Assembly: GCA_025174535.1 (NCBI GenBank)
Contig: JALBUN010000020.1
Span: 558,001 to 622,000, forward strand
DNA from: Cantharellus purpuraceus
Taxonomy: Eukaryota; Basidiomycota; Agaricomycetes; Cantharellales; Hydnaceae
Length of the DNA: 64,000 nt
Reading direction: 5' to 3'
In this document: positions 1,944 through 35,390 of the stretch, in pieces
Layout: each line of letters begins with the position of its first letter
Numbering within the stretch: position 1 is the stretch's first letter
Translations under genes and position numbers: made by a program
Notes under the pieces: generated by a model
Told to the model about the DNA's origin: nothing
Databases searched by the model: none
What the model saw: only the letters and a program-made list of their open reading frames with translations

Positions 1944-3117
1944 ATGGATTCTCAACCTCGTACACCCTCTACTGTCCCATCTCTCACCAACAACAATGCT
2001 GCCACCATCCCTATCCCAGAGGCCACGGCACACTTCACAACTCCATCTAATACCTCACATAGACTTCAGCACATAGACCCAGGAAATACGTACACTTTCA
2101 TCCACGCACCATGTACGTCCCATGGGAAAACCTTTCCCTCCTCCTGCATGGCTTGTGTTGTTGATTAGGGTCCCTTTCTTCAGTACATAACATACAGATT
2201 CAGGAACAGGCATGGCTCAATACATACGGTTCAGACCATCGCCTACCCTCGTATCCTTTCTACGACTCCCCAATGTCGCCCATATCCACGCCACTGCGTG
2301 ACCCTGCACAGTCGTACGCCCCCCATCTCACACACGACAATTATTCGACCCGGGATGCTATCGTTCACCCTCCACCAACGGCGTCATTGCTACATCTCGC
2401 ATCTGCGCCCCGCAATTCTTCAACTACGTCCAGGACTAGTTCAATGTCCACTGCTGGTTTAGATACCAGGAGCCAGCCCCATGGTATCAAAAGGAACTGT
2501 GTCCACCTCGAGGTACCTGCTGACTTTTTCCAGCCTACGACCCCTGCTACAGCATCAAGCAAGGATGCTGGAGGTAGTTTGCATGACACCAGGCGCCAAG
2601 AGATGGATCGACTCGAGTATGGATGCACCCAGTGTCACCAGTGCGTCCCCAAGGCAGATCACCTGTCCCATTACTTGGGACATTTGAACTTGAAGGAGTG
2701 GGGATGTACGTGGTGAGTGATATTCGGGTGATATTTCGGTGCCTGTTGTCTCTCCATAAGCAGGTGCCATCACCTGCTCCAGACGTATAATCCGAGCCCA
2801 TCAGTAGAATTCTCCCACACTGCCTTTCCACCATTTTTCTCCCTTTCGCTTCAGTGCCGCAAACTGACCACATCATCCAAAACGTCTCTTGACCAGCGGG
2901 AAGCCTTTTCGTCGTCACTCCAATGCCATAAGGCATGTCAAGGAATGTGTCCCCTGTTCCACATGGTGAGTCGTATTGCACCCCCAATGCCGGCCAACCC
3001 CTAAGGCTAATCGTGTTCTGCAGCCACAAGAAGATCGGCCGCAACGGGGATGGCATATCCCGTTCGCGCTGCTTGAGGTCTATGGGCAATGGAAGCGTTG
3101 GAGGCGATGATGAATGA
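1944..3117 (+). CDS. Zinc-finger protein, tandem family member 1 (four exons)
   Basis: Proposed exons are 1944-2112, 2184-2712, 2897-2965 and 3024-3117, with introns of 71, 184 and 58 bp, all GT-AG, in phases 1, 2 and 2. They give about 286 aa. The N-terminal 200 residues are rich in Ser, Thr and Pro and look disordered. A C2H2-type finger follows (CTQC...HYLGH, about residues 204-223). A second finger (CTCGKPFRRH...RHVKEC, about 231-250) is created by splicing exon 2 to exon 3. A cysteine cluster (CPCSTCH) and a short basic tail end the protein. The same splice pattern keeps genes 2 and 3 open, which strongly supports it. The fingers suggest nucleic-acid binding, but the function is unknown. 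ISA2-like fragments follow on the opposite strand. Confidence 0.75.
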
Positions 3118-22481: not shown

Positions 22482-24079
22482 ATGATGTCAAACCTTTTGG
22501 CAAGCATGAGCATGGCCGAGCTTGAGCAGTTGCTCTTGGCCTGATGGAAGGAAGAGGAAGAGGAGCGGAAACGGAAGGAAGTGGAAGAGGAGCGGAGATG
22601 GAAGGAAGAGGCAGAAGCAGAACAGAGATGGAAGGAGGAGGAGGAGGCGGAATGGAGAGGAGGAGGAGGAGGCTGAATGGAGACAGAAGGAGGAGGAGGA
22701 GCAGAGGCGGAAAGAGGCGACAGAGATGGAATGGAGAAGGAAAGAGGTGGAAGCGAAGGCCAAGAGAGCCCACAGGGTCAAGGAACTTGTGGCCGTGATG
22801 GAGGCCGCGAGACTGAAGGAAGTGGAGGAGCAGGCGCACGAGCTAGAAGCCGCCATGGAGGTAGAGGAGGAGGTGACTGGGGCAGGGGTGACCAGCCCAG
22901 GAAGTCCAAGTGTGCCAATATGGACAGGGACCCCTGAGGTCACCATCATCTCCATTACATGGATGGAGACAACTTGTCTGACAACTGTCACTGCGGTGGA
23001 CTCACCGTTACGTCTGCGGGCACGGCCATTATTTGGGTTGGGTGCAGCTGAGGAAGATGAAGCAGCAGAGGCAGAGAGGGCAGAGGTGGAGGCGGATCCC
23101 GATGCCAATATAGAGCTCAATGCAATTGCAGAGCCCGAGGTGGGTGTGGATGTTGGGAGGGATGCAGAGCTGGATCCAACTTCAAATTGTTATGAGGAGA
23201 TGGCTTGGGTGGCTGCAGTCAAGGCTCACAAAAGAGCGGAGCTCTATGCCGCCACCACTAAGAAGAATCTCGACGTCGCAGTCTTTTCATTGAAGGCGTA
23301 CCCGAGTGCTGATATGGAGAAGCAGGAGGCGGATCAGAGGGTCATATGGTGCAAGGCAGAGAGTTGTGTGTTGGTGACCCATAAGAAGGAGCTGTGTGTC
23401 GCTAGGTCAGTGATCCAGCTTTGCAAGCACGAGATGGAGAAGGCAGTGGCAGAACAGCAGGACAAGGAGGAGGAGAGGGAACACTTGGAGGCCGCAGCAA
23501 GAAGGGGCGGACCACCCAAGGCTCTGGCCCCAGTGGAGCCATTCGGTGGGCCCAGCATAACTTGTGACTTGTGTCGTGATGCGGGCGTGGAATGTGTGTG
23601 GCCTACCGGCCCAACTCGCCACCTTCAGTCCTGCGATCATTGTCGGGGTCGGAAAGGAGGGTGTAGGATCAATGGAAAGTTCGATCCCTGGAGTTGGAGC
23701 GTCAGGTCCCAACTAGTGGTACAAGGAGGGGCAGAGAAAGAATCAGAAGGTTGTCTGACCAAAAAGTGGCGGATGGAGACAGGTGCTGTGGCAGCCAGGG
23801 GTAGTGGTGTCAGATCGGAAGGGGCAACGACCGGTGCAGGTACAGGGCGCGTCTCTGCACCCAATAGTACCATGGGCCAGCTTATCCGGCTGGTTAACCT
23901 GCAGTTGGAGCACCTCCGGCGGACGGAGGGGTTGCTAGTGGACTTGGTGAAGACGATGAAATGGAAGGAGGTTCTGGAGGGTCGGCGGACGGCCAAGTTA
24001 TGTCGGTTGCGGAAGTTCATGGCCCCTTTGGACAAGGATTTGGACATGGGGGATGAGAAAGATTGGGTGTCAGATGTAG
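22482..24079 (+). pseudogene. Antisense accessory gene of Gypsy-2 with cysteine cluster and coiled coil
   Basis: The likely start is ATG at 22482 (MMSNLLASMSMAELEQLLLA), 38 bp after a TATAAAAGG box (22446). A TGA at 22542 and a frameshift near 22660 interrupt a Glu/Lys/Arg-rich helix. From there one frame runs to 24079, where the 7.67-kb element is inserted; the native stop lies at 31752 just beyond it. A cysteine cluster (CDLCRDAGVECVWP...SCDHCRGRKGGC, coded at about 23563-23670) resembles a Zn(2)Cys(6)-like binding motif. A C-terminal amphipathic helix follows. Similar cysteine-cluster proteins occur in basidiomycete repeats, but the role is unknown. It lies opposite to the Pol genes. Confidence 0.6.
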
Positions 24080-24646
24080 GATGCTTGTTCGGAATCATGT
24101 CAGTATACAATATTCTGATGTATATGAGATATACATCAGAATTTCAATGATACATAAAGCCAGGGAGTTACAATTTGGATATCTTAAAAGATTTCGGATG
24201 TGTGAAATTTTCATAAATATAAACATATATTCTATATTTTAATAAACTTTTAAAGATAAGACATTTGGTTGAGATGAACATAATTATTTACATGGATATA
24301 ATAGGAATGTATGTATTAATATAATTGGTATTATATAGGGTATTTAGATATACAAATACCAGGTGGGGATTAAAGATAGTTCAAATTATGTTATAAGTAT
24401 TGTATAAGAAAGAATCAATGATATTTGGATGTTCCTTCAAGAGAGTTGCCACCACTAAATCAGGAAAAAAAAGAATTATTTTTGAGAATTATGCCAAAAT
24501 ATCAAAATATGTTTTAATCTAGTATATTGTGTAAAATTTGAGAATCATGTTGAAATATGAAAATAAGTTTGAATTGAAGTGTATTGTATAAAATTTGAGG
24601 AAAATAGGTTGTACATACGTATTTGTTGTATTTCTGAATAAGCGTC
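24080..24646 (+). repeat. Left terminal direct repeat (copy B)
   Basis: 567 bp, GATGCTTGTTC...GAATAAGCGTC, with the palindrome at 24112-24142. The left flank is TAG; its right flank is TTA and does not match, so it was not inserted alone. Confidence 0.88.
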
Positions 24647-25181
24647 TTAGGAAAGTCTTGGAAACAAACACCTTTAATGCAGTGAAGCTATTTTTAAAAC
24701 AAAGTAACTTAGTTAGGGCATAGTGGTAGATAATCTTGTTCTAACATAAGACTGTATGACTATCCCTCGTACTTTAGGGTGCAATACCATCAGATTTTCC
24801 ATCCAAAGTGGTGGAAAATAATGATCCTGCTCCATACTAGTATATAACTCTGTTAATTTCTGTTCCAGAAGTGTGCCATCAGTACATCTGTATAAAGTCA
24901 GTGATTGGAACCTTGATATTTATAAAGGAACTTACCTCAGAAACAAATCATGGAGGGATCCTATCCGAGATATATACCAATCATTAACTCTTCTATCAAA
25001 CTCTATCTTGCATTGAAGCATAAAAGAGAGCATCTTCATAATGCTTATAACATAAAAACATAATAATCATTTTATTAAGAAAGCAAGATGTATATATCTA
25101 CTGCCTATACAAAATATCAAATGTTCAGAAAAAAAATGATTATTATGTTTTTTCATTTCTGTTTTATAAGCAGAGAGGGAT
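24647..25181. other. AT-rich noncoding stretch
   Basis: No open frame or repeat was recognised between the left terminal repeat and the first cargo gene. Promoter elements for the following gene may lie here, but none is clear. Confidence 0.4.
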
Positions 25182-26254
25182 TTGAAAATGCCACAAATCT
25201 TTGAAGATATAAAAGCAATCAAAGGCTGGATAAGTGACAATGATGCACTGATAAAAGCTATGGCAAGTCAAATGGAAGTAAAAGATGAATTAATATCTGA
25301 TCTTATAAATGTCAAGTCTTGGATGAGTGAAAAGGATAGGCAGATCACTATGCTTGAACAACAGGTTAATTCCCAGAGTCAGGAAATTCAGGTGCTTAAG
25401 AAACAGGTTGAGGAAAAAATACAATTATAACTACTTTGACAGACAGGAAAGAGAATTTAGATGAATGGATGAGTGAAATGAATGATATTGTATCAGGATT
25501 TGGAACAGATATTCATAAACTTCAGAGACAGGTTAATAGGTGTGTTGCCACAATATCAGACCATGGAACAGATATTCATCAACAGGTCAATACACATAAT
25601 GCAGAGAATCTTATATTGGACCATAGAACAGATATTCATAAACTTCAGAAACAGGTTAATAGATGTATTGCAACAATATCAGACATTGTGGAATGGAAAT
25701 CTGAAGTGCATGAGTGGATTGTAGAAACAGATGATACTGTAGTGGAACTTGGAACAGACATTAATAAACTTCAGAAACAGGGTGATAAATATAAAGCAAT
25801 AATATCTGAGATTGTTGACTGGAAATTTGATATGAATCACTGGGCTGGAAAACAAGAACAGGAGGTAACAAGGTTACAGGAAAATGGTACCAGAAAGGTG
25901 ACATTTAAGATAGTGAAAAGAGGTGTAGACTATATACTTATAGACTCAGATCAGTCTTGTAGACTAAATAGAATGGAATTATTCATAAATGGTGAGCCTA
26001 GAAAACTATCTACAATATATACTAGAAAGAATGAAATGTCATCATATGATGTAGATGGTAATAGGATTAATTTTCAAACATGGAAGCAAGGAATGACTCA
26101 AGGTTTAAGGCATCAAGAAAAAAGGTCTAATGAACGATCTCAAACTCCTAGTTCAAGGCATCAAGAAAAAAGGTCTAAGGAACGATCTGATTCAGACTCT
26201 GATCAATCTCAAATTCCTAGTTCAAGAAAAAGATGTAGAGGGAGAACCCAGTAA
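25182..26254 (+). CDS. Repetitive coiled-coil protein with basic RS-like tail (one frameshift)
   Basis: Two frames, 25182-25430 and from about 25420 to 26254, join across a run of six A at 25414-25419 to give about 355 aa. The body is a series of related helical repeats with the recurring motif GTDIHKLQKQVNRC and a W-K/M-S spacing (WMSEKD, WMSEMN, WKSEV). Then comes a beta-rich segment (TFKIVKRGVDYILIDSDQ), and the end is rich in Arg, Ser, Glu and Asp (EKRSKERSDSDSDQS). No family was recognised. The frame break is in a homopolymer, so it may be a mutation, a sequencing error or programmed frameshifting. It is first on the element's plus strand. Confidence 0.6.
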
Positions 26255-26318
26255 TGTAAGCCTCCGAAGACGTAGGATACAAGGTCACCTTGGAGTGAAT
26301 GGCTGTCCATGAGCAGTC

Positions 26319-26860
26319 TAATGATGTCCCTATCTGTCGTTTCATTTCTCCATGATTTCCCCTTTAGTAGCTCAACTTCACACGCTTCGTCAGCTGGCTT
26401 GATCAGCATTTCTTGCATCATTTGCTCCTCATATTGTGTCGTTGTGCCCTGGGAATTTTTATATAAAATGGCGCTAGTTTTTGCCTTTGGAATCAAAAAA
26501 CAAGTTTTCAGCCAACGCTCTAAGTCTACACTCTACATCACAATCCATCATCTCTACACTGAGGTAAAACACCTTGGTTCAACGATCAGATTTCCCTCCG
26601 CCACCGAGAGGTTGCTTCTCCTGAAACCAGCTTTCGCGTACCTCCCAACCGGGCTCCGCATTGTCATCCAGTCACAGAGCACGATCAGCCATCGGGACCG
26701 ACCTTTTGCTCCCATCCTCATCCAACCACAGAGCACTATCCCACTTCCCTGTTACGTACCCCTCGCCCTGATTGATCTTTGGAGTGCTGAACAACTGCGT
26801 TACACACCGTCTGCTTGCTAGGACCATTGCACGCAGGCTTATAGGATCTATTCCATAAGC
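26319..26860 (-). mobile_element. Insertion fragment, inverse copy of 33670-34258
   Basis: GC-richer DNA inside the AT-rich element. It matches 33670-34258 in reverse orientation over about 540 bp, starting at CCCTATCTGTCG and ending GCGAACCGACACC. It contains TATATAAAATGGCGCTAG. The flanking 26255-26318 and 26861-27060 are also GC-richer than the element and are probably part of the same insertion. Its open frames are not genes. Confidence 0.65.
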
Positions 26861-27060
26861 GAACCGACACCGAGTGACATCATCGGGCTGCTCAAGGACA
26901 ACGATTCAATTATCTGGTACACCATGCCGCTGCAAAGTCTCACCTACTGTCTGCTCAGTAAGTGCATCATTATCAACCCTCACAGCCAAAAGGCTGTCCT
27001 TTGATAATGTGATCAAACTGCTCCTGACAAGGTGACCTTCCATCCGTCGTCATTACCATG

Positions 27061-27361
27061 ATATGATAATATCCAATCGGCTGGTACACCTATTTAGCTA
27101 TGCAGCAAAGAATTTGGAATGAAAGACTGGCAAGATAGGAAACAAGGAACTGGTAGAAGAATGATAGATGAAAGGACAGGGAATTCTGTATGGGACTTTG
27201 TTGTAGTATTCAGAACGAGTGCATGCATCTGGCTATTGACAACTTTAGAAAATATATATAATTCAATTTATAAATATTAGATAAAAATATGGACATTCTG
27301 CTCTTCAGAACTATGCACATATCTAGTAAATAAATTTTATATATCCTTCTTTATTGACATC
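27061..27361. other. AT-rich spacer without recognised features
   Basis: Returns to the element's base composition. No supported gene. Confidence 0.35.
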
Positions 27362-27529
27362 ATGGGTAAAGATAAGAAGTGCAATGATTGGAGTTCTCAT
27401 AATCTTTGGGATTATGGTATAATGGTTGACACACAATGGACTAAACAGTTTTTTGAGACAGATTTTAGAGATATTACTTTAGATACTGATGATGAGATCC
27501 TCAGTTTTGATTACAAAAAGATGATGTGA
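27362..27529 (+). CDS. Small acidic hypothetical protein (55 aa)
   Basis: Open frame starting MGKDKKCNDWSSHNLWDYG and ending in FDYKKMM, with an acidic middle (DTDDEI). No family was recognised. Base composition and position between other plus-strand frames of the element support a real gene, but short length limits certainty. Confidence 0.4.
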   Translation: MGKDKKCNDWSSHNLWDYGIMVDTQWTKQFFETDFRDITLDTDDEILSFDYKKMM

Positions 27530-27606
27530 AATGTTTAAAGGAGTCTTCAAGAAAATTTTTACATACTTAGATAAGGAAGAATAAGGGAAAAAGTGCTTTA
27601 GAGGAA

Positions 27607-27852
27607 ATGACAATACCTTGCATTCAAACATCGAGAAAAGTCCCCCAGTTTTACCTAGTAACTGTTACAAGAGAGCTTGATCATGCTATCACAGAAGGGT
27701 TGTTTTCAGAAGTGATAACAAATGTAAGGTGTTGTTTTCCTGTAACAGTAACAGGTATGAAACATATTAATAGTAGAAAGAATGTTCTACAGTGTTTTGA
27801 AGCATTTAAGAAGTTTGTAGATATACTTGATAGGAAATTAGATGAGAAATAA
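27607..27852 (+). CDS. Hypothetical protein (81 aa) of the AT-rich element
   Basis: The frame reads IPCIQTSRKVPQFYLVTVTR, then TEGLFSEVITNVRCC and FEAFKKFVDILDRKL. Alternating hydrophobic strands followed by a C-terminal helix suggest a small folded protein. It starts 77 bp after the previous small frame. No family was recognised. Confidence 0.45.
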   Translation: MTIPCIQTSRKVPQFYLVTVTRELDHAITEGLFSEVITNVRCCFPVTVTGMKHINSRKNVLQCFEAFKKFVDILDRKLDEK

Positions 27853-27890
27853 TGAGTTTTGAAAATTAATATATAATAACCAGAGACACC

Positions 27891-28070
27891 ATGTTGAATA
27901 TACCCGAGATTGGTGATAAGGTATCATTTATCAATGCAAGAACACAAATGACAGTGACAGGTATTGTTACATTAGTAACTGGCACTTTGTCAGATGACAC
28001 TTTGCTAATAACTGTTACTTATGATGACAATGAGATTCAGCTACCACTACGTGCACTACAACAAGTATAA
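27891..28070 (+). CDS. Small beta-rich hypothetical protein (59 aa)
   Basis: MLNIPEIGDKVSFINARTQ followed by VTGIVTLVTG, LLITVTYDDNEIQLPL. The pattern of short strands with D-K-V and G-T-V turns resembles small barrel folds such as SH3/KOW-like domains, but this is only an impression. It starts 38 bp after the preceding frame and may be co-expressed with it. Confidence 0.45.
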   Translation: MLNIPEIGDKVSFINARTQMTVTGIVTLVTGTLSDDTLLITVTYDDNEIQLPLRALQQV

Positions 28071-28138
28071 GATAAATCAGATAAGTGAATATGCAATATT
28101 TTTATTCACTCAAATGAAGGCATGTGTGGTGATAGTGA

Positions 28139-28345
28139 AAAATTCAAATTACTTGGAAGTGCAATCATATAACTACTACATCTGTAGTTACAGATTGTAA
28201 GGATATTAAATGTCCTAAGAGCTCTGAACATTCAAAAAATACTCATCATGATACTAATGGTACTTATTGTTGTGTGAACAAAAGTTCAAATCTTGAAATT
28301 ATCCAAGTGAAAATAAATGAAAAATGTTGTGAGTGTAGAAACTAG
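28139..28345 (+). CDS. Cysteine-rich open frame without a start codon
   Basis: Sixty-eight open codons end at a TAG at 28343-28345. They contain DCKDIKCPKSSEHSK, THHD, YCCV and EKCCECRN, so at least eight cysteines and three histidines that could bind metal. There is no ATG; translation would need an upstream exon or frameshift. It could be a degraded gene. Confidence 0.3.
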   Translation, partial: KIQITWKCNHITTTSVVTDCKDIKCPKSSEHSKNTHHDTNGTYCCVNKSSNLEIIQVKINEKCCECRN

Positions 28346-28363
28346 GACTTTTAAATCAACTCC

Positions 28364-28978
28364 TTATGAGGATTCTTTGAACATCTGATTTCTTATACTT
28401 TGGAATATAATGTCAATAGCATTAGAACACTCTTCAAACTGAGCTTCTATGCTGTATCCAGAGGAAGGATATACAACAATTGAAACACCCTGATTGTTAT
28501 TGGTGGTTTCATATAATTTTAACCTACCATCCTTAGTTATGATCATACCATAGATTGTGATTTTACTTTTCTTGAAAACTCTCTGCTGTTGTTTCAATGC
28601 AACAACCATTGATGTAACCAAATTGTTATACACATCACAGTTCTTACAAGTTTCCCCAGCAATAGAAATATTACAACTAGGCAGATTATCCTGTTGCATG
28701 GTTTGCAGACTTGACATACAATGATTTTGTTGAATCCAGGTTGAATTACTTATTTCATTGCCCTTTTCAATCATCTTATTGTACAGTGCTTCTGGTGTTT
28801 TATCTCTTTCCTGAGAAACCAATCCAGCTGGAAAGAAGTCCTTTGGGGGATTTCTTAATCTGAATTTTATGTAGATGGTGTCAGAGTCTATATACAAAGG
28901 ATTTTCATCATCCTCTGGTTCTTTTTTAACAAAGACAGTAGATATTTTACGAACAACTTGCTTAGAGACAGACAACAT
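28364..28978 (-). CDS. Hypothetical 204-aa protein, only minus-strand gene of the AT-rich element
   Basis: Starts MLSVSKQVVRKISTVFVKKE and is intact over 204 codons. The middle contains CNISIAGETCKNCDVYNN and a predicted helix (LVTSMVVALKQQQRVFKKSK). The C-terminal part alternates strand and helix (YGMIITKDGRLKLYETTNN, VVYPSSGYSIEAQFE). No family was recognised. It diverges from the transposase gene across a 96-bp AT-rich gap that could hold a bidirectional promoter. Confidence 0.6.
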   Translation of the reverse strand: MLSVSKQVVRKISTVFVKKEPEDDENPLYIDSDTIYIKFRLRNPPKDFFPAGLVSQERDKTPEALYNKMIEKGNEISNSTWIQQNHCMSSLQTMQQDNLPSCNISIAGETCKNCDVYNNLVTSMVVALKQQQRVFKKSKITIYGMIITKDGRLKLYETTNNNQGVSIVVYPSSGYSIEAQFEECSNAIDIIFQSIRNQMFKESS

Positions 28979-29074
28979 AGCTTCATAGAATAAATATTAT
29001 TTAATTTAAAATTCAATTATCAAAAAAATGAACATATTTTTGTTTTACTGTAATATAAGAGTATCTTAGTCAAA

Positions 29075-30550
29075 ATGCCCTCAGACCAGCAAAAACGCAC
29101 AAAGGAGCAAAAAGAGAAAGAGCAAAAAGAGAAAGAAGAAAAAGAGCTTCAGCAACTTAAAATGTGGAATGATCAAAGGGACAGAGCATATAATAAGTTG
29201 ATGGACAATCATTGGAATTTTCTATACACAAAGTGGCCTGTCTTAGAACACAAAAATATCATAGAACAAAACTAAAAGATATGAATGACATGGATGATGT
29301 AAAAAAAGTAGTATATAACAAGCTTGGACCAATACCAGTATTTTTCTTTCTTGTGGTATTGTTTTCAGTTGAAGAACATTCTACACCTTATAGAGAGATA
29401 GAAAAAGGCTTGTTAGTACTATATCATCTACTCAAAGGTCCTACTTATGAAGAAATAGGAAATTTCATGCCATCAAGTAGCTTTTATGATGTTCATAAGG
29501 AATTTTATGGTCGTCTGCATCATCTTAACTTTGATCTAGATAAACAAGTTACTGATTCACTGCGTACAATGTTCTCAAATATAATAATAAGGATATTATC
29601 AGCTCTTATAAAGAATCCTCCAAAAATGGAATCAGTGACATTACTTCTTGATGGTCATGATACAAGAGGAATTTTGATTGGATCGACATCTGAAGAGGGG
29701 TACTCACATAAATTTAAAAAGGCAGGATTTAGTACTCAAGTATGCATTGACATTAATCAAATGGTTCTATTCACCTCACCTTCATTGGCATGTAAACTAA
29801 ATCCTGATGCAAAAATGTTTGTAGAGATGGCTGTATGGAATAAAATAGATAAGAATGATCAGATAGGCTTTGATGGAGCTTATCCATCTGCTATTCCAGA
29901 AGTAGTAAAGGCAAGTATATTAAAGCCTAAGAACTTCTTTTATCCTTTTAGGAAGCCAAAAAATGTTGAACTTAAACCTGAAGAAAAGATTTTTAATAAG
30001 AAGTTTGGTGCCTTTCGTTCAACAGTAGAAGCATTCTTTGGAGGGTTTGCAATATTGTTTGAAAAATTTGATAATAAGAGATCTATTAGAACTACAAATC
30101 CTGCTGTCTTTAATCTGGAATTAAAGGTAGCATGTCTATTATGGAATATTAAGAAATTTGTAGAACTACGTAAGATCAAACCATCCCCTTATCATGAAAA
30201 ATGGTGTGAACAATATTTTGATTACCCTGAGGAAGAGGACCCAGATATTGAGCCACCCAGATCATTACTGGAAAGAGCAGAAGATGTTGACAAGATGACT
30301 CTATCTCAACAACGACTATTAGAAAGATGTGAGTATGATGTGGAGATGCATTATGAGACTGAAAATGAAGTAGAACAAATAATAAGGCAAAGAAAAAGGA
30401 AAGTACGTAGAATATTTAGTTAAATGGAAATGTTATGCAGAGAAAACTTGGGAAGCAACATCAAGCTTTAAATCTACAGAATGTATTAAAGAGTATTGGA
30501 AAGACAATAGTAATAGTATTATTGTATACCTATGCTACATTCAACTGTAA
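29075..30550 (+). CDS. DDE_4 (IS5/PIF-Harbinger-like) transposase with C-terminal chromodomain, two frame breaks
   Basis: Three frames form one protein. Frame 1 (29075-29275) is a Lys/Glu-rich N-terminus. Frame 2 (from about 29260 to 30405) holds a helix-turn-helix-like segment (PTYEEIGNFMPSSSFYDVHK) and the catalytic triad: D in LLLDGHD (codon 147 counted from 29212), D in GFDGAYPSAI (221) and E in FRSTVEAFFGGFAILF (273). The last matches the RxxVExxFGxLK pattern of DDE_Tnp_4. Frame 3 (30395-30550) gives the chromodomain end VEYLVKWKCYAEKTWEA and IKEYWK. Both breaks lie in A-rich runs. It probably mobilises the element and targets chromatin through the chromodomain. As written it is not a single reading frame. 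Confidence 0.75.
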
Positions 30551-30605
30551 ATTTTTTTCCCAGAATAAAATTGAATATTTGTATGTTTTATACTTATAGG
30601 TATCT

Positions 30606-31103
30606 ATGGAGACTGATCCATTACTGAAACAGCGTCTCAATCAACAGTTTTACCAAAAGCCTTTTCACAGCAATCCACACCGGCTAGCTAATTGTGCAAC
30701 GTGTGACTGGTACCCCTTTGGGCAGTATCTGGACCGTTCATATGCTGAAGGTGAAGTGTTCCAGCTTTCAAAGTATCCTCATATCAAATATGTATTTCTT
30801 GGTCTACAACCTGATAAAATAGGCTATAATGAAAGTGATCCTATTTTTGTAGCAGAATTTGCAGGTTTTCTGAATAAAACCAACAGATTTGTAAGTGGTT
30901 CTGATCCAACCTCTGGATATGCACACATTATAACCACACATGTGAATCAGGCGTTTGTTAGACAGCCAGGCCCAGATATAAATAGGCAGAAACTATATCT
31001 TGGCCGTACAGTGCACATGATCTACATAACTAGTATTGGTATACTATTGGCTTTGCTGTGTTGGACAGTGTCCAGACATACCAATGAAGATAAGAATTCA
31101 TAA
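30606..31103 (+). CDS. Hypothetical tail-anchored membrane protein (165 aa)
   Basis: Starts METDPLLKQRLNQQFYQK. The body includes CATCDWYPFGQYLDRSY and FVAEFAGFLNKTNRF. One strongly hydrophobic segment near the C-terminus (IYITSIGILLALLCW, about residues 139-155) precedes a short charged tail (SRHTNEDKNS), the layout of a tail-anchored protein. There is no N-terminal signal peptide. The frame is intact. A membrane protein is unexpected in a DNA transposon. No family was recognised. Confidence 0.6.
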   Translation: METDPLLKQRLNQQFYQKPFHSNPHRLANCATCDWYPFGQYLDRSYAEGEVFQLSKYPHIKYVFLGLQPDKIGYNESDPIFVAEFAGFLNKTNRFVSGSDPTSGYAHIITTHVNQAFVRQPGPDINRQKLYLGRTVHMIYITSIGILLALLCWTVSRHTNEDKNS

Positions 31104-31182
31104 TGGCATGTCTAAATCTATGGAGAAAGAAGCTTGTTGATGATATAAGGTGATGATTTTTGTTTTTAAAATGACCTCCCTA

Positions 31183-31748
31183 GACGCTTGTTTGGAATCA
31201 TGTCAGTATACAATATTCTGATGTATATGAGATATACATCAGAATTTCAATGATACATAAAGCCAGGGAGTTACAATTTGGATATCTTAAAAGATTTCGG
31301 ATGTGTGAAATTTTCATAAATATAAACATATATTCTATATTTTAATAAACTTTTAAAGATAAGACATTTGGTTGAGATGAACATAATTATTTACATGGAT
31401 ATAATAGGAATGTATGTATTAATATAATTGGTATTATATAGGGTATTTAGATATACAAATACCAGGTGGGGATTAAAGATAGTTCAAATTATGTTATAAG
31501 TATTGTATAAGAAAGAATCAATGATATTTGGATGTTCCTTCAAGAGAGTTGCCACCACTAAATCAGGAAAAAAAGAATTATTTTTGAGAATTATGCCAAA
31601 ATATCAAAATATGTTTTAATCTAGTATATTGTGTAAAATTTGAGAATCATGTTGAAATATGAAAATAAGTTTGAATTGAAGTGTATTGTATAAAATTTGA
31701 GGAAAATAGGTTGTACATACGTATTTGTTGTATTTCTGAATAAGCGTC
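31183..31748 (+). repeat. Right terminal direct repeat (copy C)
   Basis: 566 bp, GACGCTTGTTT...GAATAAGCGTC, palindrome at 31215-31245, almost identical to copy B. The right flank TAG (31749-31751) matches the left flank of copy B, which defines the outer ends of the whole element. Confidence 0.88.
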
Positions 31749-31986
31749 TAGAGTGATGATGAGTCAGAGATGGCGTCGGAGATGGAGCCTGAGGTAGATA
31801 AGGGGAAGGGAAAAAGGAAACGCGATGTATAAAAATAAAAAATGAAAATGATTATAAATTTTGGAGCAGAGAAAAATGAGGTGGAGTGATATTCCTTTGG
31901 AGTTTTTTGGGCAGGCTGGTAATTTTCCTTGTGACTTGTAATAAAATGATGATGCGAAATAATAGAATTAGCGTTAGTAATCGAAC

Positions 31987-33600: not shown

Positions 33601-33669
33601 CGTCAGGCTTTGCTCCGAGTTGTCCTGGACGGAAATGGATAATGAGATTGAACTGAGATAGGTATTTGG

Positions 33670-35390
33670 TGTCGGTTCACTTAAGGAATAGATCCTATAA
33701 GCCTGCACGCAACGGTCCTAGCAAACAGACGGTGTGTAACGCAGTTGTTCAGCACTCCAAAGATCAATCAGGTCGAGGGGTAGAGGTAGCACTGAGTAAC
33801 AGGAAAGTGGAATAGTGCTCTGTGGTTGGATGAGGATGGGAGCAAAAGGTCGGTCCCGATGGCTGATCGTGCTCTGTGACTGGATGACAATGCGGAGCCC
33901 AGTTGGGAGGTACGCGAAAGCTGGTTTCAAGAGAAGCAACCTCTCGGTGGTGGAGGGAAATCTGATCGTTGAACCAAGGTGTTTTACCTCAGTGTAGAGA
34001 TGATGGATTGTGATGTAGAGCGTAGAGCGTAGACTTAGAGCGTGGACTTTGACTTTAGAACGTTGGCTGAAAACTTGTTGATTGATTCCAAAGGCAAAAA
34101 CTAGCGCCCTTTTATATACAAATCCCCAGGGCACAACGTCACAATATGAGGAGCAAATAATGTGATATGATGCAAGAAATGCTGATCAAGCCAGCTGATG
34201 AAGTGTGTGAAGTTGAACTACTAATGGGGAAATCATGGAGAAATGAAACAACAGATAGGGGTAATCTTTGTAAGAATAGGGGGTGATGAGTAATAAAAGA
34301 ACCAAAAATAGAACAAGGATGAATAAGTCGTGTATGAATGAATTAAAAGATGAAACAGGGGTGAGTCATATAAAAGAACAATAGAAACGTCCACCAATAC
34401 CATCTTCCCTATGGCTCTGAAGGTAAATTGACCCTGAGTCACATGAGGACTTCAGTCAGCATCCACAACAAATACTCCTTATTGTCTTAGTGATCCGTCT
34501 CCATATGATATCCCATTCCAAGGGTATTCGGTCCCTTTGCCTGACATGATGTAACCTGAGTCGGATTGAAGTGGGAGGATAGGTCAGCGATGGCGACTGA
34601 AATTCTACCTCACATTCAACTCTTCTATCCGTGTTACAATATAGAGGTGAAATGCCGAGGAATGTATATGGTTCAATGGAATTGTGAAAGAATATGGGAT
34701 CGCCAATGGCATAAGAGAGACATGGTGGGGATCTTGGACGTTGAAAGAGTTTTGGAAGTATTTTGACACGTGGAGGTGGCTTAACATGCCCGTGGAGCTC
34801 GGCGTATTTTTGATAGTCCTCTGTGTCCAGAGACCAGTGTGACATATTATTAGAAGCAATGTTGGAGAGGGGAATAGAATGGGAAGCCATGTGAATGATG
34901 ATGAAAGGATTGGTGTGAATAGAAGGCTGATAATGATCGATGGCGATGAAACACGAGTGACGATTGATGGCTAGAATTAGAGACTGAGGTGGAGAGGGAG
35001 TTACGGTGCTATTTAAAGTTGATACAAAAAGACGCTGGCAGAGTTGGACTGTCAGAGTGGTTTGATATACATCCTTGATGCTCATGTGAGGGCGACGCTG
35101 ATGACGAGGCCACAACAACAAGATACTCAATAAGTGAGAGCCGATAAGAAATAATGCCAGCTGGTACAGCGGATATCCTCAGAGATGAAGCTGAGGGGAT
35201 CACACTGCACCAAGGCAAGTCTTTATACTAAATGATGGAGACGGATAGGAGAACCAAGATAGGGGAGGAAGGATAGGGGAAGTGATAGGGGCAATGAAAT
35301 AGGGGAGATGCACCCTGACAGGCTGCGCTGATAGGGGTGTCAAGAGAAAATACTAAAAATAGAATATGACTTATTTGAACCCTGACAGCT
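33670..35390 (-). mobile_element. 1.7-kb insertion in Gypsy-2 RNase H with GATAGGGG end clusters
   Basis: It separates WSDDE and YLSQFNLIIHFRPG, which are neighbours in an intact RNase H. Minus-strand ends are TGTCAGGGTTCA and TGAACCGACA, which are imperfect inverted termini. GATAGGGG occurs once at 34253 and four times between 35240 and 35345, with further variants. No clear target duplication was found. The part 33670-34258 recurs inverted at 26319-26860. The class is uncertain: non-autonomous DNA element or a degraded LTR element. Confidence 0.5.
34456..35130 (-). CDS. Hypothetical frame (up to 224 aa) in the 1.7-kb insertion
   Basis: The part from the second in-frame start (MASHSIPLSNIASNNMSHW) is the more protein-like, with YQKYAELHGHVKPPPRVK and EVEFQSPSLTYPPTSIRL. 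No family was recognised and no zinc or catalytic motif is visible. It is the only sizeable frame of the insertion. Confidence 0.35.
   Translation of the reverse strand: MSILLLWPRHQRRPHMSIKDVYQTTLTVQLCQRLFVSTLNSTVTPSPPQSLILAINRHSCFIAIDHYQPSIHTNPFIIIHMASHSIPLSNIASNNMSHWSLDTEDYQKYAELHGHVKPPPRVKILPKLFQRPRSPPCLSYAIGDPIFFHNSIEPYTFLGISPLYCNTDRRVECEVEFQSPSLTYPPTSIRLRLHHVRQRDRIPLEWDIIWRRITKTIRSICCGC

Follow-up and report, generated by a model that had tools for sequence, protein, structure and literature searches.

The 64,000-nucleotide stretch of DNA analysed here (the window) carries, at positions 24080–31748, a single inserted element in which a 6.5 kb internal region (INT) lies between two long terminal direct repeats (LTDRs) of 567 and 566 bp, both in the same orientation. 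The element is a variant of the LTDR-type DNA transposons, with a transposase from a different superfamily to that of KolobokP. Full copies of this element are born with two identical or nearly identical repeats, whilst their interiors are joined to many repeat variants. The account we regard as best supported, unproven and held with slightly more belief than doubt, is of a two-level transposon with a DDE_4 (IS5/PHIS-like) transposase, in which a circle with one repeat enters a lone repeat and conversion follows. The parts of the element and its target site are as follows.

24077–24079, no strand: left target-site duplication (TAG), from the flank reading and a paralogous empty site with a single TAG.
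24080–24646, plus strand: left LTDR, 567 bp, with imperfect 11-bp terminal inverted repeats.
24647–31182, plus strand: INT, 6.5 kb, with constant inner borders TTAGG... and ...CCCTA.
31183–31748, plus strand: right LTDR, 566 bp, in direct orientation.
31749–31751, no strand: right target-site duplication (TAG), from the flank reading and the empty site.

The two LTDRs are 99.5% identical across their full length. They begin with GATGCTTGTTC (left) and GACGCTTGTTT (right) and end with GAATAAGCGTC, each having an imperfect 11-bp inverted terminus (GAYGCTTGTTY...GAATAAGCGTC). Re-reading the flanks and inner borders (repeat/TTAGG and CCCTA/repeat) placed TAG only outside the outer ends, in agreement with the original prediction of near-identical 566-bp direct repeats flanked by TAG at their outer sides alone. 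Its description of the interior as AT-rich also held: the 1-kb blocks of the element have 30–35% GC, except for 45% at 26.0–27.0 kb, against 44–57% in the adjoining two or three blocks to each side (20–21 kb is also AT-rich, at 34%). An empty site had been suggested as a check on the ends, and an exact 31-base joint with a single TAG is present at the paralogous position C34:631556-631586, with four more places at 1–2 mismatches. Furthermore, the repeat surrounding the element occurs elsewhere without it, as the joined 400-base flanks aligned over their full length, within 3 bases, at 40 of 40 scored places (90–93% identity; the 40 scored were among 473 first-look candidates). Three empty sites were fetched and were continuous through the joint, but with two extra bases (AG) there. 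The flank matches elsewhere and the exact joint at C34 confirm both ends of the element and its 3-bp duplication.

Each LTDR also has a near-perfect palindrome of 31 nt (ATTCTGATGTATATGAGATATACATCAGAAT), which starts 32 bases inside its left end (window 24112–24142 and 31215–31245) and is possibly a binding site.

The genome searched comprises 40.15 Mb in 50 contigs, and the transposase was detected at 61 places (95 protein matches, which we merged). The best piece had at least 91% protein identity in 57 of these, 85% in one and 62–65% in three, and a DNA search with the transposase gave 98–100% identity in the best 40 of 61 candidates. The right-end pattern of the LTDR (≤3 mismatches) was found 428 times in the genome versus 0 in a reversed control, a count which excludes the one intact-end repeat of a second family (B, below) and one outlier that was checked, each differing by 4. 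As 428 far exceeds two per interior, most LTDRs in the genome probably stand alone, a view drawn from these counts, with 11 lone repeats read.

Twenty of the 61 interior loci were fetched, chosen by best transposase match. Matching 3-bp flanks were present in 14 of the 16 single copies with both outer ends, compared with 3.1 by random re-pairing, the exceptions being L032 and L034; in L029, L031 and L033 the flank was read by eye beyond mutated first repeat bases. The other four loci were L021 (one end in the stretch), L027 (truncated left repeat), and L036 and L037 (a repeat common to two interiors). Among all 20 fetched loci, the interior starts with TTAGGAAAGT after 20 repeats and ends with ATGACCYCCCTA before 20; the right repeat of L031 has a mutated start. 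Further full-length copies with identical borders and matching flanks, which the original prediction had looked to as the mark of a family, hence do exist. The duplications (3 bp in 14 of the 16 full copies) are dominated by TTA, TAA and ATA, with TAG, TCA, AAA and CGA also occurring; those of PIF/Harbinger elements are TWA-like. Lone repeats possessed their own matching 3-bp flanks at 10 of 11 distinct sites (exception L040), partial repeats at locus edges being omitted from this count. The prediction would have been undone by repeats that were always independent insertions; instead, the inner borders of full copies are constant and only the outer flanks are duplicated.

Arrays of the form INT-LTDR-INT, with one repeat between two interiors, were observed in L036 and L037. 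The dimer on C38 (L036/L051) has ATA at both outer ends, and in the L037 array the outer ends were not both read. Elements L002/L021 (C1:2359842-2373423) and L036/L051 (C38:6151-19236) occupy the same position in two copies of a dispersed repeat and have the same ATA duplication, the former being a single copy with a ~5.6 kb insertion and the latter the dimer. Their dispersed-repeat flanks are merely 81–86% identical, their interiors 99.6% identical over 2.9 kb. This pair poses the question of target preference or of an old insertion with a homogenised element.

To compare the repeats with the interiors, 48 repeats and 18 interiors from full and lone-repeat loci were aligned. The main test was restricted to the 13 single copies in which the flanks match and neither a repeat nor a border motif is missing, leaving out L021, L027 and L033 (border motif or repeat missing), L032 and L034 (flank mismatch), and the arrays L036 and L037. 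Twin repeats inside one copy are 0.245% apart, with 18 substitutions in 13 pairs versus 157 by random pairing (p 1e-4). Between copies, divergence is 2.30% for repeats, 0.46% for interiors and 0.37% for the first 541 bp of INT, which are non-coding, with a repeat/interior ratio of 5.0 (bootstrap 3.5–6.7). A poly-A run near repeat columns 382–388 is ambiguously aligned and inflates twin differences; with these columns masked, divergence is 0.17% within copies and 2.11% between. The window pair itself shows 2 mismatches and 1 gap by BLAST and 4 substitutions by MAFFT.

Repeat and INT distances are uncorrelated (Mantel r 0.01, p 0.46, 13 copies), and in approximately unbiased (AU) tests the left-repeat data reject the interior tree (p 3e-10) and the interior data reject the left-repeat tree (p 0.0015). 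The copies L020 and L038, for example, have interiors 0.24% apart and repeats 3.4% apart, the two repeats of L020 being identical, and 9 repeat types occur in the 13 copies. The pattern holds when L032, L034, L036 and L037 are kept (17 copies; Mantel r 0.12, p 0.24; twins 0–12 substitutions), and in these 17 divergence falls at the repeat/INT border on both sides. Choosing loci by best transposase match lowers INT divergence, although this cannot alone raise repeat divergence and hence does not create the conflict between repeats and interiors. The repeats of the 13 full copies and of 8 lone sites form pools that are not separable by permutation (p 0.25). Copying of whole units predicts like divergence of repeats and interiors, whereas that observed is unlike. 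The twin repeats of each copy therefore go back to one recent repeat, roughly as old as the arrival of the interior, and interiors have been re-associated with different repeats, both twin identity and decoupling being statistically established.

Two explanations raised by the structure of the element were rejected on these data. The original prediction offered either a composite transposon or a new LTR-like type of element. In an ordinary composite, two independent small elements mobilise the DNA between them, and here each repeat does possess inverted ends of its own, and lone repeats with duplications exist. Two independent small elements would leave separate left and right repeat lineages, whereas the repeats are twins (18 differences versus 157, as above), with constant inner borders and orientation, leaving the simple composite very improbable. 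The alternative of a new type is qualified in turn, the plan being not wholly new, since KolobokP has it. Long terminal repeat (LTR) retrotransposons are marked by terminal repeats that are twins, by repeats standing alone and by tandem copies with a repeat in common. All three are found here, as would suit such an element or a non-autonomous one that relies on reverse transcriptase supplied in trans. However, the ends are GA..TC rather than TG..CA, the duplication is 3 bp, and a DDE_4 transposase is present. Ten frames scanned with Pfam gave no reverse transcriptase, protease, integrase, Myb/SANT or His-Me finger nuclease. Moreover, reverse-transcribed whole units would couple repeat and interior, a coupling rejected by the AU tests, and we consider an LTR retrotransposon the most far-fetched of the readings weighed here.

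In the two-level account, the 566-bp repeat would at the first level be a mobile unit resembling a miniature inverted-repeat transposable element, with its own inverted ends, which the transposase would insert with a 3-bp duplication, scattering lone repeats. The ends, duplications and empty site at this level are observed; we infer that it is the DDE_4 transposase which moves the repeats, and that lone repeats move themselves and are not merely deletion products. At the second level, the 6.5-kb interior with its transposase and accessory genes is flanked on both sides by the same repeat in direct orientation. A circle of one repeat plus interior would arise when the repeats of a full copy recombine with each other, and this circle would recombine with a lone repeat elsewhere, thereby duplicating the acceptor repeat. 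Break repair would then convert both flanking repeats to the sequence of the acceptor, and the interior would home to docking sites dispersed by its own transposase. That the inner borders stay constant whatever the repeat type suggests recombination within the repeat and not fresh insertion of a repeat into the interior. One-sided patches of alleles common to other repeats were seen in the twins of L025 and L034 (the latter outside the set of 13) and fit incomplete conversion. The repeats that two interiors have in common in L036 and L037 are likewise in keeping with this account. We tentatively suggest, with rather more doubt than belief, that this is a eukaryotic two-tier system in which docking repeats are scattered by the transposase and homing of the interior duplicates the acceptor, so that an LTR-like architecture is rebuilt without reverse transcription. 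KolobokP model b1 in its plain form, in which the circle crosses over into a lone repeat and no conversion follows, was set aside, as it predicts twins about as different as two random repeats.

Several points weigh against the homing account. The circle and the homing are deduced, no circle having been observed, and all copies compared come from one genome. Plain crossover predicts mosaic, unequal twins, hence identical twins demand added conversion or gap repair. INT divergence rises to 1.3–2.0% at alignment columns of about 2400–3000, largely a Gypsy-like piece, and lone repeats are less diverse (1.29%) than full-copy repeats (2.35%). The pair L020/L031 is nearest in both repeat and INT, as expected from copying of whole units. 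Finally, INT copies recombine among themselves, which indicates that general gene conversion is at work and that a single INT tree is an approximation.

This last point bears on broader gene conversion, which is the main and a serious rival to homing of a circle, even though we judge it unlikely. In this scenario of concerted evolution, whole elements transpose intact and have been resident for longer, their repeats having later been overwritten by ectopic conversion from the many other repeats, with twins continuing to convert each other. Recombination is detectable among repeats and among interiors, and the one-sided patches of common alleles in some twins are also as this would predict. It requires, however, that twin conversion be far faster than ectopic conversion, together with a separate homogenisation of interiors which halts at the repeat border, and the interiors are young by their own divergence (0.46%). 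A further possibility is that an extrachromosomal one-repeat circle or concatemer swaps its repeat with a chromosomal one and is copied, the LTDR-INT-LTDR unit then being inserted by the transposase at a fresh site. This would explain twin identity, decoupling and 3-bp duplications together; tandem copies exist, and L020/L031 resemble unit copies. Nevertheless, no replication gene was recognised in the frames scanned with Pfam, and the 9 types among 13 copies would require the repeat to be exchanged almost every round, hence we regard this route as improbable.

The closest known system is KolobokP, described by Kojima and Bao (2022, PMC9587614). KolobokP elements have the LTDR-INT-LTDR plan, called unique to KolobokP by its describers, with repeats of about 450 or 660 bp which have their own short inverted ends, an RR start and a YY end. 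Lone LTDRs and (LTDR-INT)n-LTDR multimers with duplications occur, and the transposase is inside INT. The duplications are 3–5 bp depending on family, the reported hosts span seven animal phyla, and a His-Me finger nuclease is encoded in most families, with some appearing to lack it. Its describers invoke circles and unequal crossover but do not settle on a pathway. The element here is similar in having INT between long direct repeats with their own short inverted ends (GA..TC fits RR..YY), lone repeats (10 of 11 with duplications), multimers (L036, L037) and a transposase in INT. It differs in its DDE_4 transposase (assigned by Pfam match, with no direct comparison with a Kolobok sequence) with downstream chromodomain homology, where KolobokP has a Kolobok transposase, and, unlike most KolobokP families, no His-Me finger nuclease was found in the ten frames. 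It also has 3-bp duplications, about four other accessory genes and what is probably a fungal genome as its host, in contrast to the 3–5 bp duplications and animal hosts of KolobokP. In our literature search, which did not cover Repbase, KolobokP was the only LTDR-type DNA transposon found.

The DDE_4-like transposase, by our assignment, resembles those of the PHIS superfamily (PIF/Harbinger, ISL2EU, Spy, Pangu, Nuwa; Han et al. 2015, PMC4482050), in which PIF/Harbinger has AT-rich 3-bp duplications. PHIS elements are described with terminal inverted repeats, in contrast to the long direct repeats here, and the term “direct repeats” is absent from the main text of that paper. NuwaI has a Myb/SANT partner protein, unlike the ten frames here, which had no Myb/SANT match. 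No long terminal direct repeats appear in the portions consulted of the descriptions of fungal TET/JBP transposons, including Harbinger types (PMC12730594), or of PHIS (PMC4482050). As in bacterial composite transposons and IS26 translocatable units, which the KolobokP paper discusses (PMC9587614), mobile repeats flank a cargo, and a circle may join a repeat already in place and so restore the composite; unlike in those systems, the transposase is in the cargo and not the repeats, and the repeats are twins and not independent. The likeness to LTR retrotransposons lies in twin terminal repeats, lone repeats and tandem copies with a common repeat, and the difference in the GA..TC ends, the conflicting repeat and interior genealogies and the lack of a reverse transcriptase in the ten frames.

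The interior contains the following features, all read from the window copy.

25188–26254, plus strand: gene 1, a coiled-coil protein with variable tandem repeats, split here into frames of 80 and 261 amino acids (aa).
26328–26871, minus strand: piece homologous (87.5%) to Gypsy-like sequence at 33668–34260.
27362–27852, plus strand: gene 2 remnant, partly deleted here (start coordinate by eye).
28364–28978, minus strand: gene 3, 204 aa here.
29281–30423, plus strand: transposase of DDE_Tnp_4 type, a 380-aa frame here.
30410–30510, plus strand: chromodomain homology at the C-terminal end, in the +1 frame with respect to the transposase (coordinates by eye).
30606–31103, plus strand: gene 5, a 165-aa protein.

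The transposase frame is 380 aa in the window and 6 other copies, and 420–454 aa in 11 of the 18 copies compared. The original prediction of a DDE_4-type transposase stands through its relatives: DDE_Tnp_4 (PF13359) exceeded the Pfam cut-off in 3 of 3 relatives scanned, whereas the window frame scored just below it (22 versus 24.8 bits). Among other columns, D124, D198 and E250 are invariant in a 19-sequence transposase alignment and are interpreted as the catalytic triad. An AlphaFold model (mean predicted local distance difference test score, pLDDT, 79.7) gave weak Foldseek matches, none at E ≤ 0.001, of which 43 of the 50 listed were DDE transposases or integrases, and a sequence search of PDB with the transposase gave no match. 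Five of 53 transposase relatives carry an organism name, these being Apophysomyces, Rhizomucor and Mortierella, which makes a fungal host likely. A viral origin was also considered; of the 31 pattern matches obtained when viral contigs were scanned with the transposase alignment, none was confirmed as a relative. The chromodomain that had also been predicted is present as homology (Chromo was above cut-off in 2 of 3 relatives), but is out of frame with the transposase, and the 65 bases around the frame shift show no length difference in 18 of 18 copies.

The “at least six other frames” of the original prediction reduce to about four accessory genes, two of which are broken or partly deleted in the window copy. 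Gene 1 is one frame of 329–409 aa in 8 of the 18 copies compared; within it (window 25479–26230) lie 126-bp and 48-bp repeats, one array of which varies from 66 to 676 bases between interiors and is a handy marker of interior lineage. The Gypsy-like piece is within INT of 15 of 18 copies (missing from L023, L027 and L032). Gene 2 is unbroken, at 256 aa, at 12 places in the genome, with no Pfam match and no significant PDB match (one hit, E 0.24). Gene 3 is 216 aa in 16 of the other 17 copies and gene 5 is 165 aa in all 18, with an apparent C-terminal membrane helix as judged by eye; neither has a relative in the large protein database searched. Polymorphism among copies, expressed as the ratio of non-synonymous to synonymous change (pN/pS), was 0.91 for the transposase (21 non-synonymous, 6 synonymous), 0.97 for gene 5, 0.25 for gene 3 (5 and 5) and 0.47–0.63 for gene 1, all from small numbers. 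It looks near neutral for the transposase and gene 5, and lower for genes 3 and 1.

A second repeat family, B, accompanies diverged transposases.

L047:8008-8563, also L052: repeat B, 76% identical to the window repeat.

At C23 (L047, transposase 62%), the repeat following the interior is 76% identical to the window LTDR and is interrupted by other sequence; the 9.5 kb fetched for this locus did not include its left part and left repeat. Genome-wide, repeat B has 39 further places at 94–98% identity among the best 40 of 682 first-look candidates, which possibly include family A. The relative on C35 (transposase 65%) ends in repeat B (97–100% over three pieces), and the 1.5 kb fetched there showed no left repeat. 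Only three interiors, all diverged, were seen in a family B context. On a longer timescale, repeat family and transposase lineage seem to stay together. At G000:C35:14068-18046, the 65% transposase lies ~2.3 kb from a 97% identical gene 2, an arrangement which suggests exchange of interior modules between families.

The element thus appears to represent a second lineage with the LTDR-INT-LTDR plan, with a transposase from another superfamily and probably in another kingdom than KolobokP. The existence of such a lineage suggests that evolution can arrive at an LTR-like structure repeatedly, with no need of reverse transcription. For KolobokP, the question left open (PMC9587614) is by what route the composite structure persists or is restored, and in the parts of that description consulted we found no comparison of twin-repeat with interior divergence. 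The contrast between twins and interiors provides a direct sequence test of this question.

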